IMG/VR virus record: IMGVR_UViG_3300044641_002996
Location: 1-25,998 of that record
Reading direction: 5' to 3' (one strand)
Length of the DNA stretch: 25,998 bases
From: a virus
The notes below the pieces were generated by a model. That model searched no databases. It saw only the letters and a list, made by a program, of their open reading frames with translations, and was not told where the DNA came from. The position numbers and the translations under genes were made by a program. Within the stretch, counting starts at the first letter, position 1; every line of letters starts with the position of its first letter. This document shows, in pieces, positions 2,459 to 22,491 of this stretch.

Positions 2459-3274
2459 ATGAAACTTAAAGAGTGTATCATTGTATCTAAAGAGGTAAAA
2501 GATAAATTTATCCTAGCTAAAAACAGAGATAGAGCATACAATCCATCTTTAGAAATTGTACATACTATCATTGATGGTGTGGAAGTTGCATATCTACATG
2601 ATTTAACAACGGATTGGAGTGAGGGGTTAAATGAAAATGGTATAGGTGTTGTAAACTCCGCACTATTAGTAGGACACGATGAAGCAGAGCATAAGATTGT
2701 AAAGAAAGGTGGAAAACCTGGACCTGATGGTGATAAGATGAGAAACATCATCAAACAACCTACTCTAATGAAAGCCGTTAGAGCAGCATTAAAGTATAAA
2801 GGTAAGAGTGGATTATCTCTTAAAGGTCATACGTTTGTATCATCACCGAAACATTTGATAAGTATTGAAACTACATCAAAGCATAAGCCTGATGTTAAAC
2901 TGCAAAACTCCGAATCGCCTGTTGTTCGTACAAATCACGGACACATGTTTACTGATGCAGGATATACACATGGCGAAAAGTACCTATCATCCAAATTGAG
3001 AAAAATATCAGCAGAAAAATCAGTTGATAAGGTAGAAGATTGGAAAGGAATAGCACAAGCTATGAGAAAAGAATACTTCCCAAATAAACCTATGTTAAAT
3101 ATGAAAAGGGACACAAAAGAGATGTCTACTTCTTCACAAACGGTAATGAATCTGACAGACCGTATATTACAAATTACTTATTTTAAGAACAAAGTAAACG
3201 AATTCAAAGGTATTAATAGACAACTACCTGACGGATACCAACCTAAGATTACAATTGAAGTAATCCCAGTTTAA
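2459..3274 (+). CDS. Ntn-hydrolase-like protein (C45/choloylglycine-hydrolase type)
   Basis: The 271-residue protein carries the signature spacing of Ntn cysteine hydrolases. Cys6 would be the nucleophile once a five-residue propeptide (MKLKE) is removed. An Asn-Arg-Asp at 22-24 follows in KNRDR, then GLNENGIGVVNS (residues ~56-67, like the GxNexGlav motif of the family), and Thr-Asn-His-Gly at 158-161. Known relatives cut amide bonds, as in acyltransferases, bile-salt hydrolases and acylase-like enzymes. Here the substrate is unknown; a cell-wall or signal amide is possible but unsupported. Length is close to the family's smaller members. It is the last gene of its run, four bases after the previous stop, and is followed by a promoter-like motif. 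Assignment rests on motifs seen by eye. Confidence 0.6.
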   Translation: MKLKECIIVSKEVKDKFILAKNRDRAYNPSLEIVHTIIDGVEVAYLHDLTTDWSEGLNENGIGVVNSALLVGHDEAEHKIVKKGGKPGPDGDKMRNIIKQPTLMKAVRAALKYKGKSGLSLKGHTFVSSPKHLISIETTSKHKPDVKLQNSESPVVRTNHGHMFTDAGYTHGEKYLSSKLRKISAEKSVDKVEDWKGIAQAMRKEYFPNKPMLNMKRDTKEMSTSSQTVMNLTDRILQITYFKNKVNEFKGINRQLPDGYQPKITIEVIPV

Positions 3275-3724: not shown

Positions 3725-4972
3725 ATGGCTTTTGATAATTCACAAAGTTCTGTCAGTTCCGTACAAACTCCCGGTGCCAAACAACCAATGGGGTTTGGAA
3801 TTGTATATTCCGTTATTTTAGATGAAAATCATCCGTACTTAAAAGGAAGTGTTGGTGAGAGGCAAATAGAAAAACAAGGAGAGGCCGCCTATATGGGTGC
3901 AATACAATATAGAATTACTGGCCAACCAAGTACCGATGATGCTTCACTTCCTGTAGCGTTTCCGTATGATAAAAATTTTAAAACAATACCATTAGTAAAC
4001 GAATCGGTTGAAATACTTCAAAATAATGGTGTATCATATTATAGAAGAATTGGTTTGGAAAAAACACCAAACATAGATAGTAAAAAAACGTTAATATCGG
4101 AAATATTCCCACCAGAACAACAAGTTGATGATGTAAAGAAAAATTATAAGACGGTTCAACAAACAGGAACCACAATGAGTAATGTTAATGAATCATCTAA
4201 ATATGATAAATTTGGTGACTATTTTCAAGAAGAACCAGGAGTACATAAATTAAAATTATATGAGGGAGATAGTTTGATAGAAACTAGATTTGGACAATCT
4301 CTTAGATTTTCTGGATTTAATAATTCCGAAAAAATATTTTCACCAACAATTATATTGAGAAACAATGAAAATGCAGAATCTAAAAAGAAATTAATAAAAC
4401 TACCAACCGAAGAAGATATAAATAGAGATGGTAGTGTAATTGTTTTAGGTTCGAATCAGTATCAATTGCCATTTCAACCAGGTACAATATCTGACAAAGG
4501 TTCATCTGATTTTGAAACAAAACCAAACACATTTAAAGGATACCCGTCAAAATTAATAGGAGACCAAATTCTAATAAATTCTGGTAGAGTTATAATATCT
4601 GCAAAAAATGCTGAAATGATATTCTATTCAAAAAAGAATTATGGATTTATTTCTGATGGTGCTATGTCAATTGATAATAAATTGGGTATCGATGTTACTG
4701 TTGGGGATAATATAAATGTAACTGCAAAGGATAGAGATATAAATTTTAATACATCTAATGGTAAAATAAATTTAGGTAATACTAAATTAGAACCATTGGT
4801 TAAAGGTGATAGTTGGGTTTCGCTAATGGAAGAATTGATAGATGCCATAGTAGCACAACAATTCTTAACTCCATCTGGACCTTCGGCAACTGGACCCGTA
4901 AATAAGCCAACATTCAATACAATAAAATCTAAATTAAAATCGGTATTGAGTGAATTAAATAAAACATCTTAA
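3725..4972 (+). CDS. Baseplate hub/tail spike protein, gp5-like (no lysozyme domain)
   Basis: The 415-residue protein has an N-terminal OB-fold-like region at ~22-100 (GIVYSVILDENHPYLKGSVG, then VNESVEILQNNG), as in gp5/VgrG-type hub proteins. Next comes a segment around 177-197 (GDSLIETRFGQSLRFSG) of the kind found in gp5 homologues of marine T4-type phages. Repeated short beta strands at ~280-350 (INSGRVIISAKNAEMIF, then IDVTVGDNINVTAKDRDINF) suit the intertwined beta-helix of a membrane-piercing spike. Unlike T4 gp5 there is no inserted lysozyme domain. The two peptidase genes immediately downstream may supply that activity in trans. Spacing is one base after the previous gene and two before the next. 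It acts at the tail tip during injection, by family knowledge. Confidence 0.75.
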   Translation: MAFDNSQSSVSSVQTPGAKQPMGFGIVYSVILDENHPYLKGSVGERQIEKQGEAAYMGAIQYRITGQPSTDDASLPVAFPYDKNFKTIPLVNESVEILQNNGVSYYRRIGLEKTPNIDSKKTLISEIFPPEQQVDDVKKNYKTVQQTGTTMSNVNESSKYDKFGDYFQEEPGVHKLKLYEGDSLIETRFGQSLRFSGFNNSEKIFSPTIILRNNENAESKKKLIKLPTEEDINRDGSVIVLGSNQYQLPFQPGTISDKGSSDFETKPNTFKGYPSKLIGDQILINSGRVIISAKNAEMIFYSKKNYGFISDGAMSIDNKLGIDVTVGDNINVTAKDRDINFNTSNGKINLGNTKLEPLVKGDSWVSLMEELIDAIVAQQFLTPSGPSATGPVNKPTFNTIKSKLKSVLSELNKTS

Positions 4973-4974
4973 AA

Positions 4975-6252
4975 ATGTCTTGGGATATATTCAAAGAAAA
5001 TATATTAAACGTTGTAACAAATCCAGAATCTATAAATTCAACGGATACTGTTGCGGAATTATATGCAAAAGAATATGATGCTGCTATAAAAAGAGGTGCT
5101 GATATTTTATTTCAATCAAAGATGAAAACGGGAAATGTACAATCTTTGAAATTATTAATAAAATCCGCAATGGATAGTGGTGTATCCCAAAAAGAACCAT
5201 ACGATTTAGTTGGTGAAATGGGGAAAGGGGTTTTAGCTTATTGGGCTGGAGCTCAGTTGGACCCATCATCCGTACCATCACCACCAACAACACCACCTGC
5301 TACTGGAGCAGTTCAAAATATTCAAATTGTGGCTATTACGTGTACCAATGCTGGTCAATGGCAACAACCAACTTTAGGAGGTGGTAGTGAGCCTGATTTA
5401 AGAGAAGGTGAAACTGAAAACGATGATATGCCTGATACTGAACTTGGAGAAACTGAAGAAATATTAGGAGAAGTCCCAGAAGATGAAGAAACTGATGACC
5501 CACAGGAATTAGAAGAAGAAGAGTCATCATTTTTCAATACACAAGCAGAAGAAGTTGAAATTAGTGGAGTAGACCCAATAGGTGACCCTCAAGTAGTACC
5601 ACCACAACCTGCACCAATTCCTATTGATACATCTACTCCTGTTGATTTACAAAATCCATCAGACCCTAATAGTGCTCCTATTGCTGATGTTAAAGGACCA
5701 AGAATAACTTCGAATGTGGGAAAAACAGCACCACCACCTCCACCTGGTTTAGCAAGTTTTGGAAATGGTAAAATACCAAGAGATAAATTAGGAAGTATAG
5801 ATGCATCTTATGGTGGTGGTATATTACACATTGAGGCTGCAAAAATGTATAATAAAATGATAGCACAGGCCAAAAAAGAAGGAGTTAAGTGGAGAGTGTC
5901 ATCTACATATAGAGATTATGCTGGACAAGTAGCTTGTTTTGAGAAGTATGGGTCAGGCAGTGCAGCTAAACCAGGTTCTTCACCACATGGCTGGGGATTA
6001 TCAACTGATTTTGGTGAGATAGCCGGTATGCAACAGGCAAGAGCTAAATCGTTGGGGGTTGGTAGGGCAACTCCCGGACCAGCTCGATATACCAGAGAAA
6101 ATTCAAAAATATATCAATGGTTGGCTGTAAATGGGCCAAAATATGGATGGTATAATCCATATAGATTAGCAGATGGTGGCGGTATGGATGAAGCTTGGCA
6201 TTGGGAATATTGGGGATTTTATACATTAACTAAAGAACAAAGACAAGCGTAA
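4975..6252 (+). CDS. Virion-associated M15-type D,D/L,D-carboxypeptidase-like protein
   Basis: The 425-residue protein has three parts. Residues 1-~125 are a helical domain with a Pro-rich end (AYWAGAQLDPSSVPSPPTTP), probably for virion attachment. Residues ~130-265 form an acidic, then proline-rich linker. Residues ~265-420 form an M15B (VanY-type) zinc peptidase: SSPHGWGLSTDF gives zinc ligands His338 and Asp345, and DEAWHWEYW gives the catalytic Glu406 and zinc ligand His409. Such enzymes cleave peptidoglycan stem peptides. The position next to the spike gene suggests a tail-borne enzyme that opens the cell wall on entry, though a lysis role is not excluded. The linker motif VDPIGDPQVVPPQPAPIP (199-216) recurs in the next gene. 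Confidence 0.85.
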   Translation: MSWDIFKENILNVVTNPESINSTDTVAELYAKEYDAAIKRGADILFQSKMKTGNVQSLKLLIKSAMDSGVSQKEPYDLVGEMGKGVLAYWAGAQLDPSSVPSPPTTPPATGAVQNIQIVAITCTNAGQWQQPTLGGGSEPDLREGETENDDMPDTELGETEEILGEVPEDEETDDPQELEEEESSFFNTQAEEVEISGVDPIGDPQVVPPQPAPIPIDTSTPVDLQNPSDPNSAPIADVKGPRITSNVGKTAPPPPPGLASFGNGKIPRDKLGSIDASYGGGILHIEAAKMYNKMIAQAKKEGVKWRVSSTYRDYAGQVACFEKYGSGSAAKPGSSPHGWGLSTDFGEIAGMQQARAKSLGVGRATPGPARYTRENSKIYQWLAVNGPKYGWYNPYRLADGGGMDEAWHWEYWGFYTLTKEQRQA

Positions 6253-6253
6253 C

Positions 6254-7285
6254 ATGGGTGCTATACAACCAACTAAAAATCATAAACTAATAATTGATGA
6301 GTTTATACGATACGCTCAGCAACATCTAACCACAGTTAGTGGTATTGTTACCACCGTATCCACATATCCTCCACTAAACACTCCGGGACCCGGAATAGCA
6401 AATTGGTCTGGTTATAGTGTACAACCTGCAAATTTATCGGGACTAACATCTGATGAATTTTTTGAAGAAGCAGAAGCGATAGAGCGTGATATTAATGAAG
6501 AATATCCCGCAAATCAACAATTGTATGAAGAACAATTCGAAACCGAAGAAGCTGCTATGCAAAATAATAGTGATGTTACTGAAGAATCTGCATTTTTCCG
6601 CGTAAGAGAATACAATAACGAAAAAGAATTTGGTTTAGACCCAGTAACTGACCCACAAATAATACAACCACAACCAGCTCCAATTCCATTAGAACCAACA
6701 CCGCCCGGAGATTTACCACAACGAAGCGTAGCAGGGCCAGTTGGTAGAGGGGATGAAGCATTATTTAGAAAATGTGGTAATGGAGTATGGCCGGCTGTAG
6801 GTACTGCACCTAATTTTCAAGTAAGTTCTACTCAAGCCGGCAAATGTACAAGGTATTGGTATAAGGTAAATACAGAATATATGACCAAAAATTGTACACA
6901 AATAATGTTCCCAACTGCAAGTGGGGATAAAAAAATAACGGTACACAAAGATTTAGCAGCTATTGTTAAACCGGCAATTGTAAGAATAAAAGCATTGGGG
7001 TTACAAAAATATATTCAAAATTGTGGAGGAGGATTGGCAGTTAGAAACGTAACATGTGGAAGTAGATTATCAAACCATAGTTGGGGAACTGCCATTGATA
7101 TGAATACTACTCTATATCCGTATGGATACAAATTCAGGGCAGATGGTATTTATGCTGGTAATGCAAAGATAAGAGATTTGAATGAGTTTGATAAAGGATT
7201 TCAACAAGTGGCAGCTATATTCAAATCACAAGGGATGACTTGGTTAAGTAATAATGACCCAATGCACGTTTCAATATATGAGTAA
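6254..7285 (+). CDS. Second M15-type peptidase (M15C-like) on a related scaffold
   Basis: The 343-residue protein begins with a region holding a Pro-rich stretch (YPPLNTPGPGIANWSGY), followed by an acidic linker. The motif LDPVTDPQIIQPQPAPIP at 128-145 matches the preceding protein at 12 of 18 positions. The C-terminal ~170 residues are an M15C-like zinc peptidase: LSNHSWGTAIDMN gives His275 and Asp282, and the end of the protein (DPMHVSIYE) gives Asp335 and ligand His338. This resembles phage L-alanyl-D-glutamate endopeptidases, so it probably cuts a different peptidoglycan bond from its neighbour. Cysteines at 191, 203 and around 257-267 may form disulphides in the periplasm. It starts one base after the previous stop and is last in its run. 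Confidence 0.85.
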   Translation: MGAIQPTKNHKLIIDEFIRYAQQHLTTVSGIVTTVSTYPPLNTPGPGIANWSGYSVQPANLSGLTSDEFFEEAEAIERDINEEYPANQQLYEEQFETEEAAMQNNSDVTEESAFFRVREYNNEKEFGLDPVTDPQIIQPQPAPIPLEPTPPGDLPQRSVAGPVGRGDEALFRKCGNGVWPAVGTAPNFQVSSTQAGKCTRYWYKVNTEYMTKNCTQIMFPTASGDKKITVHKDLAAIVKPAIVRIKALGLQKYIQNCGGGLAVRNVTCGSRLSNHSWGTAIDMNTTLYPYGYKFRADGIYAGNAKIRDLNEFDKGFQQVAAIFKSQGMTWLSNNDPMHVSIYE

Positions 7286-7347: not shown

Positions 7348-7845
7348 ATGAATACAGATAAATTATTAAAAGCCATACAAATCCTAATAAAAGAGGAATT
7401 GAAAGAACAATTACCTATATTAATTAAGGAAACTGTAAAAGCTGAAATGAAAAAACTGATAGCAGAAGGAAAACAACCTGCTAAACCAAAGAGTAGCGGA
7501 TTATCAATGGCTAAAGCTATGATGGAAGATGAAACTTTAGTAGAATCTATTGAAAGTAAAGTGACACCTACAAAGCAATTCAGTAAAAACCCAATGATTA
7601 ACCAAATTCTAAATGAAACCGCAATGGCACCAACTGGTGATGGTGGTTTTAGAACTATGAATTTTGGACAAGGTGATATGGGTTCAATTGTAAATAGAAC
7701 TGCAATAGCTGAAAAAATGGGTTATGGTGATTTAGCAAAAGGACCACAACCAACTGGATTGGGTGTACAAACTGGAGTTCCTGAATTAGATAAAGCTTTG
7801 AATAGAGATTACTCTGAACTTGTAAAAAGATTTAATAAAAAGTAA
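7348..7845 (+). CDS. Hypothetical protein with N-terminal coiled coil, wedge operon
   Basis: The 165-residue protein starts with about 40 residues of amphipathic helix (LLKAIQILIKEELKEQLPIL and beyond) rich in Lys, Glu, Leu and Ile, a likely coiled coil. It continues with a Gly/Pro/Met-containing, probably extended region (~90-150) and a short basic C-terminal helix. There are no catalytic motifs, cysteines or membrane segments. Its stop overlaps the start of the gp25-like gene (TAATG at 7843-7847), which indicates translational coupling and suggests a structural or assembly job at the baseplate. No family is assigned. Confidence 0.7.
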   Translation: MNTDKLLKAIQILIKEELKEQLPILIKETVKAEMKKLIAEGKQPAKPKSSGLSMAKAMMEDETLVESIESKVTPTKQFSKNPMINQILNETAMAPTGDGGFRTMNFGQGDMGSIVNRTAIAEKMGYGDLAKGPQPTGLGVQTGVPELDKALNRDYSELVKRFNKK

Positions 7846-8273
7846 TGGCAATTGTATTAGGACAAAAGTTAGTACAAGATACGAAAAAATTTGATGATTT
7901 TGCGATAGGTATAACTTTGCCAATCCGAATTGGTAATACTGCTTTTAATCAAAGTTTTAAAACAGCGGAGCAAGCTAGTTCTAATATAAAAAATTTATTA
8001 CTAACAAAAAGAGGTGAACGAATAATGCAACCTAATTTTGGTAGTGGTCTTCAAGAATTATTGTTTGATTTTAATGATGATTCATTGGCTGAAAAAATAG
8101 AAGATACCGTTACATTGGCATTAGAAAATTGGTTACCATATATAAGTGTTGATACAATTGATATAGGAGCATCTGATTTGGATAAAGATAATAACATTGT
8201 AAATGTATCAATTAAATTTAGAGTTTTAGGAAACCCAGACTTAAATACAGTCACCTTTAATGTAGGTGTATAA
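7845..8273 (+). CDS. 25: Baseplate wedge protein, gp25-like
   Basis: The 142-residue protein shows the gp25/GpW-type wedge fold. It has an N-terminal strand region, then TKRGERIMQPNFGSGLQELL (the family's hallmark arginine/Gly-Glu-Arg turn followed by Pro-x-Phe-Gly), then a helix (DDSLAEKIEDTVTLALENW), and a final beta region ending in FRVLGNPDLNTVTFNVGV. Length is close to T4 gp25 (132 residues). In contractile tails, gp25 sits in the wedge core together with gp6 and helps start sheath assembly. The gp6-like gene follows after 11 bases, the usual gene order. The symbol is by analogy with T4. Confidence 0.9.
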   Translation: MAIVLGQKLVQDTKKFDDFAIGITLPIRIGNTAFNQSFKTAEQASSNIKNLLLTKRGERIMQPNFGSGLQELLFDFNDDSLAEKIEDTVTLALENWLPYISVDTIDIGASDLDKDNNIVNVSIKFRVLGNPDLNTVTFNVGV

Positions 8274-22080: not shown

Positions 22081-22491
22081 ATGTCTTGGAAATTTAATGG
22101 AAATATTGTTACAGAAGAAAACACACCTGAAGGTGCGGTTGGATTTGTCTATAAAATGATACATATTCCAACTGGAAAATTCTACATAGGTAAAAAACAA
22201 CTTACTCAAACTCGTAGATTAAAACCCCTTAAAGGAAAGACTCGTAAAAGGGTTGTAAAGAAAGCATCTGATTGGGAGAAGTACTATTCATCAAATGAAT
22301 GGATTAAATCGGAAGTTAAAGCTGGAAACGCTGAACACTTTGAAAGAGAAATCATTCAATTTTGTTTCTCAAAGAAATCATTATCATATTACGAAATTAA
22401 ATGGCAGTTTCATTACGATGTACTTGCCAATGAACAAGCAATAAACGAAAACCTTATGGGAAAATTCTTCCGTAGGGATATTATAAATTAA
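22081..22491 (+). CDS. GIY-YIG-like nuclease domain protein
   Basis: The 136-residue protein has the two hallmark elements in order: GFVYKM at 21-26 in place of GIY, and FYIGKKQL at 34-41 for YIG. A basic stretch with Arg45/Arg46 is a candidate for the conserved catalytic arginine. YYSSNEWIKSEV at 68-79 resembles the segment before the metal-binding helix. Glu88/Glu90 in HFEREIIQF could be the metal ligand. Length suits a lone catalytic domain with no DNA-binding module. Relatives in T4-type phages include Seg homing endonucleases and unclassified GIY-YIG proteins. Being in a tight run (one base after the previous stop, five before the next start), it does not look like a free-standing intruder. 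Confidence 0.65.
   Translation: MSWKFNGNIVTEENTPEGAVGFVYKMIHIPTGKFYIGKKQLTQTRRLKPLKGKTRKRVVKKASDWEKYYSSNEWIKSEVKAGNAEHFEREIIQFCFSKKSLSYYEIKWQFHYDVLANEQAINENLMGKFFRRDIIN

Follow-up and report, generated by a model that had tools for sequence, protein, structure and literature searches.

Tail-borne peptidoglycan hydrolases for entry, the virion-associated lysins (VAL or VAPGH), are drawn from several enzyme families (PMC6116005, PMC5380687). In phage T4, no enzyme of the particle is known besides the lysozyme within the spike protein gp5 (PMC3004832). The locus described here shares with this gp5 tail lysozyme (PMC3004832) a wall hydrolase that would be delivered by the baseplate beside the spike, as read here from the genes. 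Unlike T4 gp5, its spike-like protein has no enzyme, and two separate adaptor proteins carry exchangeable ones; a GH24-type lysozyme of the T4 gp5 kind occurs in one of the two positions (slot B, see below) of relatives. The difference from the described VAL/VAPGH proteins is that two paired, position-specific adaptors exchange their enzymes independently, and their presence in the virion is presumed. While tail-borne lysins are well known (PMC6116005), the paired adaptors with independent exchange are new as far as we found. No description of them was found in the open-access literature, which is itself weak evidence.

By the gp6 homologue, the nearest deposited phages are Microcystis phage Mel-JY01, a 484-kb uncultured phage and Flavobacterium phage immuto, all at <42% identity. 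Mel-JY01 (PP395634, L068) has a wall enzyme gene between the spike-like gene and gp25. This gene (L068:6930-7961), at the slot position, is annotated as a putative chitinase and is GH19-like by eye; it is a single enzyme gene, and the adaptor HMMs find no adaptor. Immuto (MW353175, L070) has a similar baseplate gene order and a gp6 homologue, without proteins A and B there, and its VanY-type carboxypeptidase gene lies far off (~159 kb).

We consider it probable that the two proteins studied here, A and B, found in a family of uncultured phages with contractile tails, are baseplate mounts with slot-specific adaptors that tether exchangeable wall hydrolases for entry.

Layout of the two slots and their catalytic domains

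The window, meaning the whole stretch of DNA that was analysed, is a virus record of 25,998 bases. Genes A and B, which define slots A and B, are separated by a 1-base gap and encode proteins of 425 and 343 aa. Their layout is as follows.

3725..4972, + strand: spike-like (putative gp5-like) baseplate protein, in which no lysozyme domain is recognisable; borders the slots on the upstream side
4975..6252, + strand: slot A protein, 425 aa, made of adaptor A, acidic segment, linker and VanY-type M15 peptidase
4975..5367, + strand: adaptor A, aa 1-131, kept in slot A proteins regardless of the enzyme behind it
5377..5565, + strand: enzyme-cognate acidic segment of the VanY cassette (DLREGETENDD...DEETDDPQELEEEESSFF...)
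5566..5622, + strand: shared linker patch of A, GVDPIGDPQVVPPQPAPIP, aa 198-216
5770..6249, + strand: VanY-type M15 peptidase domain (H338, D345, E406, H409)
6254..7285, + strand: slot B protein, 343 aa, made of adaptor B, acidic segment, linker and M15_4 peptidase
6254..6427, + strand: adaptor B, aa 1-58 (DEFIRYAQQHLTTVSGI..T.S.YPPLNTPGPGI.NWSGY), kept regardless of the enzyme behind it
6446..6631, + strand: enzyme-cognate acidic segment of the M15_4 cassette (EEAEAIERDINEEYPANQ...EEAAMQNNS)
6632..6688, + strand: shared linker patch of B, GLDPVTDPQIIQPQPAPIP, aa 127-145
6749..7282, + strand: M15_4 peptidase domain (H275, D282, D335-P-M-H338)
7348..8273, + strand: 165-aa protein and gp25-like baseplate wedge protein; a conserved pair that borders the slots on the downstream side

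The preliminary description had placed the pair in a baseplate-type setting, just downstream of a spike without a lysozyme domain, and both points hold. The genes sit in the tail/baseplate module, between the spike and gp25/gp6, and are followed by the 165-aa protein, gp25 (PF04965, E 4.4e-15) and a gp6/J-type protein. The spike-like protein (3725-4972) has no Pfam match at E<=1, and it is colinear with its relatives in the alignment, with no space where a lysozyme could be inserted. As its profile found only noise in the PDB, its putative identity as a gp5-like protein comes from its position and the general pattern.

The two proteins end in different types of M15 peptidase, as had been proposed from the motifs. 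Protein A matches the Pfam family VanY (PF02557) with E 2.8e-18 over aa 284-414, covering positions 4-131 of the 132 of the profile. Protein B matches Peptidase_M15_4 (PF13539) with E 1.3e-7 over aa 270-340, at 32.5 bits (cutoff 25). The catalytic patterns, SPH338GWGLSTD345...E406-x-x-H409 in A and SNH275SWGTAID282...D335-P-M-H338 in B, are invariant among the aligned relatives. Because these patterns stand in the domain alignments, the calls of A as ExxH type and B as DPMH type are correct. The Zn-ligand HxxxxxxD plus the ExxH motif of VanY-type peptidases is conserved in A, which shares its catalytic domain and Zn-ligand/catalytic pattern with the VanY-type M15 peptidases (PF02557; solved structures 4mph, 4jid and 5hnm). 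Unlike in those, the enzyme of A sits on a phage baseplate adaptor. A role of A as a resistance carboxypeptidase was rejected, as the NCBIfam VanY-A model gives 28 bits against a cutoff of 425.

The H..D...DPMH pattern of the PF13539 M15 peptidases is common to protein B, and here such enzymes are mounted on adaptor B or A. The DxxH catalytic pattern of this Peptidase_M15_4 family resembles that of the L-Ala-D-Glu endolysins. Searches of the PDB with the M15_4 profile of B's relatives gave no sequence match at E<=0.1, so the M15C subtype of B is assigned by motif. Single-sequence searches of solved structures with A or B gave no match either.

Adaptors and the enzymes mounted on them

Relatives were collected by scanning viral contigs with A, B and N-terminal alignments, which gave 65 loci at first and 241 source sequences finally. 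In loci that span the region, slot A is followed by slot B between the spike gene and the genes of the 165-aa protein and gp25, and each adaptor type stays in its own slot across relatives. The adaptor HMMs recognised at least 207 slot A and at least 203 slot B ORFs, with at least 130 distinct intact proteins and later somewhat more. The tails behind the adaptors form 12 clusters, one of which is a single frameshifted VanY protein. The remaining clusters are given below, with class counts drawn from related contigs, many of them fragmentary.

GH19: at least 36, all with adaptor B, including a fused protein (L131)
VanY: at least 19 in slot A and at least 11 in slot B
M15_4: at least 11 in slot A and at least 13 in slot B
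CHAP: at least 22 in slot A and at least 1 in slot B
Cys/His type with GLCPQG, with weak amidase/CHAP similarity: at least 10 in slot A and at least 1 in slot B
GH24 phage lysozyme: at least 6, slot B
VanY plus hydrolase-like domain: at least 2 in slot A and at least 2 in slot B
M15_3-like: at least 2 in slot A
Small unclassified clusters: three, all in slot B

Some loci depart from the common layout. VanY cassettes at L099:3275-4822 and L100:1536-3338 bear a C-terminal α/β-hydrolase-like domain (weak Pfam match in L099, E 0.009). L057 has three enzyme genes, not two (L057:5794-6858, L057:6869-7705 and L057:7710-8642). A break at ~aa 99 divides its adaptor A; the part before the break carries M15_4, the remainder starts the next ORF with a CHAP domain, and a slot B GH19 follows. 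In one group of relatives, an extra Ala/Lys-rich gene, probably encoding a coiled coil, lies between the spike and slot A (L044:3689-4648, L041:1734-2645, L048:1532-2191, L054:1510-2040 and L057:5215-5790). The product of this extra gene is possibly another tail-tip component; immuto has a similar gene, annotated as RecN-like. Two apparent variants were set aside: the enzyme-less slot A of L170 reads as a local indel, since L088 is otherwise identical in DNA, and the slot A of L025 looks frameshifted.

Adaptor A (~130 aa) and adaptor B (~58 aa) differ in length and in their conserved residues. Adaptor A has predicted helices at 3-15, 23-39, 55-68 and 77-90, followed by a Pro-rich/β part (YWAGAQL...NAGQW). 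An AlphaFold2 model of protein A (20 sequences, mean pLDDT 58.6) has four helices within aa 3-90, an unstructured stretch at aa 129-251 (pLDDT ~30) and then a folded VanY domain. According to this model, the architecture of the protein is adaptor, flexible tether, enzyme. Searches of the PDB with the adaptor profiles gave noise only, with no homologue of known structure. No cultured phage carrying adaptor A or B was found, and a profile search of genome contigs with adaptor A gave one weak match (46 aa at 35%), in a contig of a Desulfobulbus MAG.

The preliminary description had suggested a profile alignment of the two N-terminal parts as a check on common origin; hhalign of the adaptor A and B profiles gave a probability of 1.1%, that is, no relation at the profile level. 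The parts of A and B before the linker have no significant similarity (shuffle p 0.08-0.31). For the catalytic parts p is 0.04, in an alignment outside the linker that holds nothing convincing.

The adaptors also occur without an enzyme or joined to each other. In L028, the slot A protein consists of just the adaptor (137 aa, no enzyme). L131 encodes a 472-aa protein in which an A-type and a B-type adaptor stand in tandem ahead of a GH19 tail. In the 484-kb phage, a protein of 175 aa (L069, L220 and L221) has an A-like stretch (hmm E 6e-4), then a B-like stretch recognised by eye only (HLLTVQG...WTG), and no enzyme; it is apparently a fused A-plus-B adaptor. MAFFT alignments mixing fused and separate adaptors placed B rows or the C-terminal parts of A wrongly and were excluded. 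The tandem adaptors would fit two parts of one structural unit and not paralogues, and the two may once have been one structural protein that was split, or separate ones that were joined.

Cassette exchange and the shared linker

On a spike plus gp25 tree of 64 genomes, each of the two slots has changed its enzyme class at least 13 times; the tree is a quick one with some open forks, and these counts are approximate minima. The borders of the changes can be followed in DNA. Adaptor A (aa 1 to ~120) is ~80-93% identical in the pairs of close relatives L229/L114 and L189/L144, and from there to the end of gene A identity sinks to a background of ~35-65%. It is ~80-93% over adaptor B (aa 1 to ~60), drops at ~aa 60-80, stays at ~35-50% up to near the end of gene B and is high again near or after the stop. 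Between the window and L072, identity in slot B drops at ~aa 54. The pair L118/L135 was discarded as an example of exchange; it is ~94% identical throughout despite differing cluster labels and is thus of one enzyme type. The tree count is unaffected, because unclassified slot A rows such as L135 were excluded.

The same cassettes are found in both slots. L011 and L072 have VanY in both, with 87% DNA identity over 896 bp starting after the B adaptor, and same-class slot pairs include M15_4/M15_4. The acidic segment that precedes VanY in the window also precedes VanY in slot B of relatives, and the M15_4 segment precedes M15_4 in slot A of relatives. When each segment after the adaptor was compared with the other slot of other genomes, 56 of the 60 best matches came from a protein of its own enzyme class (shuffles: mean 8.6, maximum 28). 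The other 72 of the 132 segments matched nothing across slots, mostly because slot A lacks members of GH19 and GH24. Judged by sequence, the acidic segment after the adaptor goes with the enzyme and not with the slot. Catalytic exchange on retained carriers is real and rampant in both slots.

The linkers GVDPIGDPQVVPPQPAPIP of A and GLDPVTDPQIIQPQPAPIP of B have 12 identical residues from DP to PIP, a likeness already pointed out in the preliminary description. A local alignment of A135-229 with B53-158 scores 123; 500 shuffles have a mean of 37 (sd 6.4) and a maximum of 77, so the similarity is not due to chance. It is strongest in a 19-residue patch (5566-5622 and 6632-6688), which is confined to the close relatives of the window and absent from other slot A/B pairs. 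The SxFF motif noted shortly before the linker does match between A and B, but it is weaker evidence, as other M15_4 cassettes have EAFNS or EALNS, and among M15_4 cassettes FF occurs at this site only in the window's close relatives.

The pair had been explained by duplication of one carrier gene followed by exchange of the catalytic domains, with the shared linker left as a trace. Exchange is borne out by the repeated class changes, and the linker patch is more similar than chance would give, but the duplication itself does not stand, as the adaptors are unrelated by profile comparison. After an old duplication, the adaptors would also be expected to be better conserved than the rest, and yet the similarity lies in a patch present only in the window's close relatives. 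In addition, L131 holds both adaptors in tandem as different domains. Given unrelated profiles, different lengths, residues and slots, and this tandem, sequence comparison leads us to reject duplication as the main account, and we regard it as unlikely. The alternative is that the linker comes from exchange between slots, by gene conversion or cassette movement, and is homogenised within each genome. From the sequences this appears the likeliest origin, although we give it only even chances. Among the VanY/M15_4 genomes, the two linkers of one genome are more alike in protein sequence than linkers of different genomes (a value as high arises in 4 of 5040 permutations). L015 has FNDEDEVGTPK in both slots, with 94% DNA identity over 34 bp, and at the DNA level its A gene matches only its own B. 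QPAPTP is found in both slots of L001 and L004, QPAPIP in both slots of the window, and L072 offers a whole-cassette transfer between slots. Against this, the within-genome excess leans much on L009 and L015 and is not significant at the DNA level (732 of 5040, seven genomes). In the window, 8 of 13 codons in the linkers are identical, barely above the 7.2 expected from codon usage, and a recent DNA copy is not supported here. For the window pair, inter-slot exchange is a candidate origin, with an older exchange or selection on linker composition both possible. Exchange of linkers between slots is compatible, as a sub-hypothesis, with slots that hold tethered hydrolases.

Enzyme pairing and proposed function

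The preliminary description regarded the pair as a possible kit that opens two kinds of wall bond. Among 43 dereplicated genomes, 21 pair a slot A peptidase or amidase with a slot B glycosidase and 13 pair different peptidase classes (one of these being the frameshifted VanY); the same class occurs twice in 3, and an enzyme is unclassified or missing in 6. Most genomes thus pair different classes, as the kit would have it. Two different bonds are not a strict requirement, as both slots hold the same enzyme in some phages. By the predicted enzyme classes, two-bond pairing is a tendency, not a rule.

Recognised glycosidases make up 0 of 46 dereplicated slot A proteins and 25 of 48 in slot B (Fisher p ~1e-9, uncorrected for ancestry), counting enzymes recognised by the class clusters among the best 80 loci of each adaptor search, so that others could be missed. 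Slot B switches between glycosidase and other enzymes at least 8 times on the tree, and its bias is therefore not that of one lineage. That slot A takes only cutters of peptide or amide bonds, and that glycan cutters go only into slot B, is a tentative rule that we rather doubt. If it is true, the two docking sites would meet the wall at different moments or in different geometries, and the baseplate of contractile phages would dictate a fixed order in which wall bonds are cut.

As baseplate mounts, A and B would act as follows. The slot-specific adaptors would dock at their own tail-tip sites, flanked by the spike and by the gp25/gp6 wedge, and each would bear a peptidoglycan hydrolase on a flexible, acidic, proline-rich tether. 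Tail contraction would present both tethered hydrolases to the wall and open it locally, the two together replacing the lysozyme domain inside T4 gp5. An enzyme and its cognate acidic segment would be exchanged together, as one cassette. Homology for its replacement between co-infecting phages would come from the conserved DNA of the adaptor and of the gene that follows the slot, and cassettes would occasionally pass between the two slots of one genome. We infer the virion location, the docking and the action on the wall at entry, and also that exchange proceeds by homologous recombination.

It could be argued that A and B are ordinary lysis endolysins that lie in a tail operon by chance. Their catalytic families are common among endolysins, and the PHROGs matches of B are labelled endolysin. 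The best PHROGs match of A, however, is a tail tape-measure protein. The enzymes also occupy two fixed positions on conserved non-enzymatic adaptors, between the spike and gp25, and the adaptor is kept where the enzyme is missing (L028, L069), which makes chance placement improbable. Still harder to credit is that the enzymes are structural or maturation proteases acting on phage tail proteins instead of cutting peptidoglycan for entry. M15 folds could in principle cut other peptides; the same slots of relatives, however, hold GH19, GH24 lysozyme and CHAP, enzymes whose usual substrate in phages is peptidoglycan. This we consider very improbable.

Taken as baseplate mounts, the proteins offer a natural series of adaptors that tolerate many unrelated wall hydrolases, so that the entry enzyme of a phage can be read and tested apart from the rest of the tail. 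Whether a contractile phage opens the wall through one or two bond types, and whether position sets the order, become testable questions. The adaptors could also serve as markers for the entry enzymes of uncultured phages, whose genes are readily mistaken for those of endolysins.

Several other genes of the window were recorded. A SegE-type GIY-YIG homing endonuclease gene (22081-22491; PF19835, E 4.8e-27) lies 3' of the tail genes, ~15 kb away from the slots; GIY-YIG-type homing endonucleases are able to promote local exchange. An ORF at 2459-3274 has an NRDR motif reminiscent of Ntn-hydrolase (C45-like) proteins, without Pfam support. Upstream of the baseplate genes, two ORFs (146-793 and 830-1486), neither with a Pfam match, resemble outer-membrane β-barrel proteins by eye, and the second has a relative in L131 at 736-1368.
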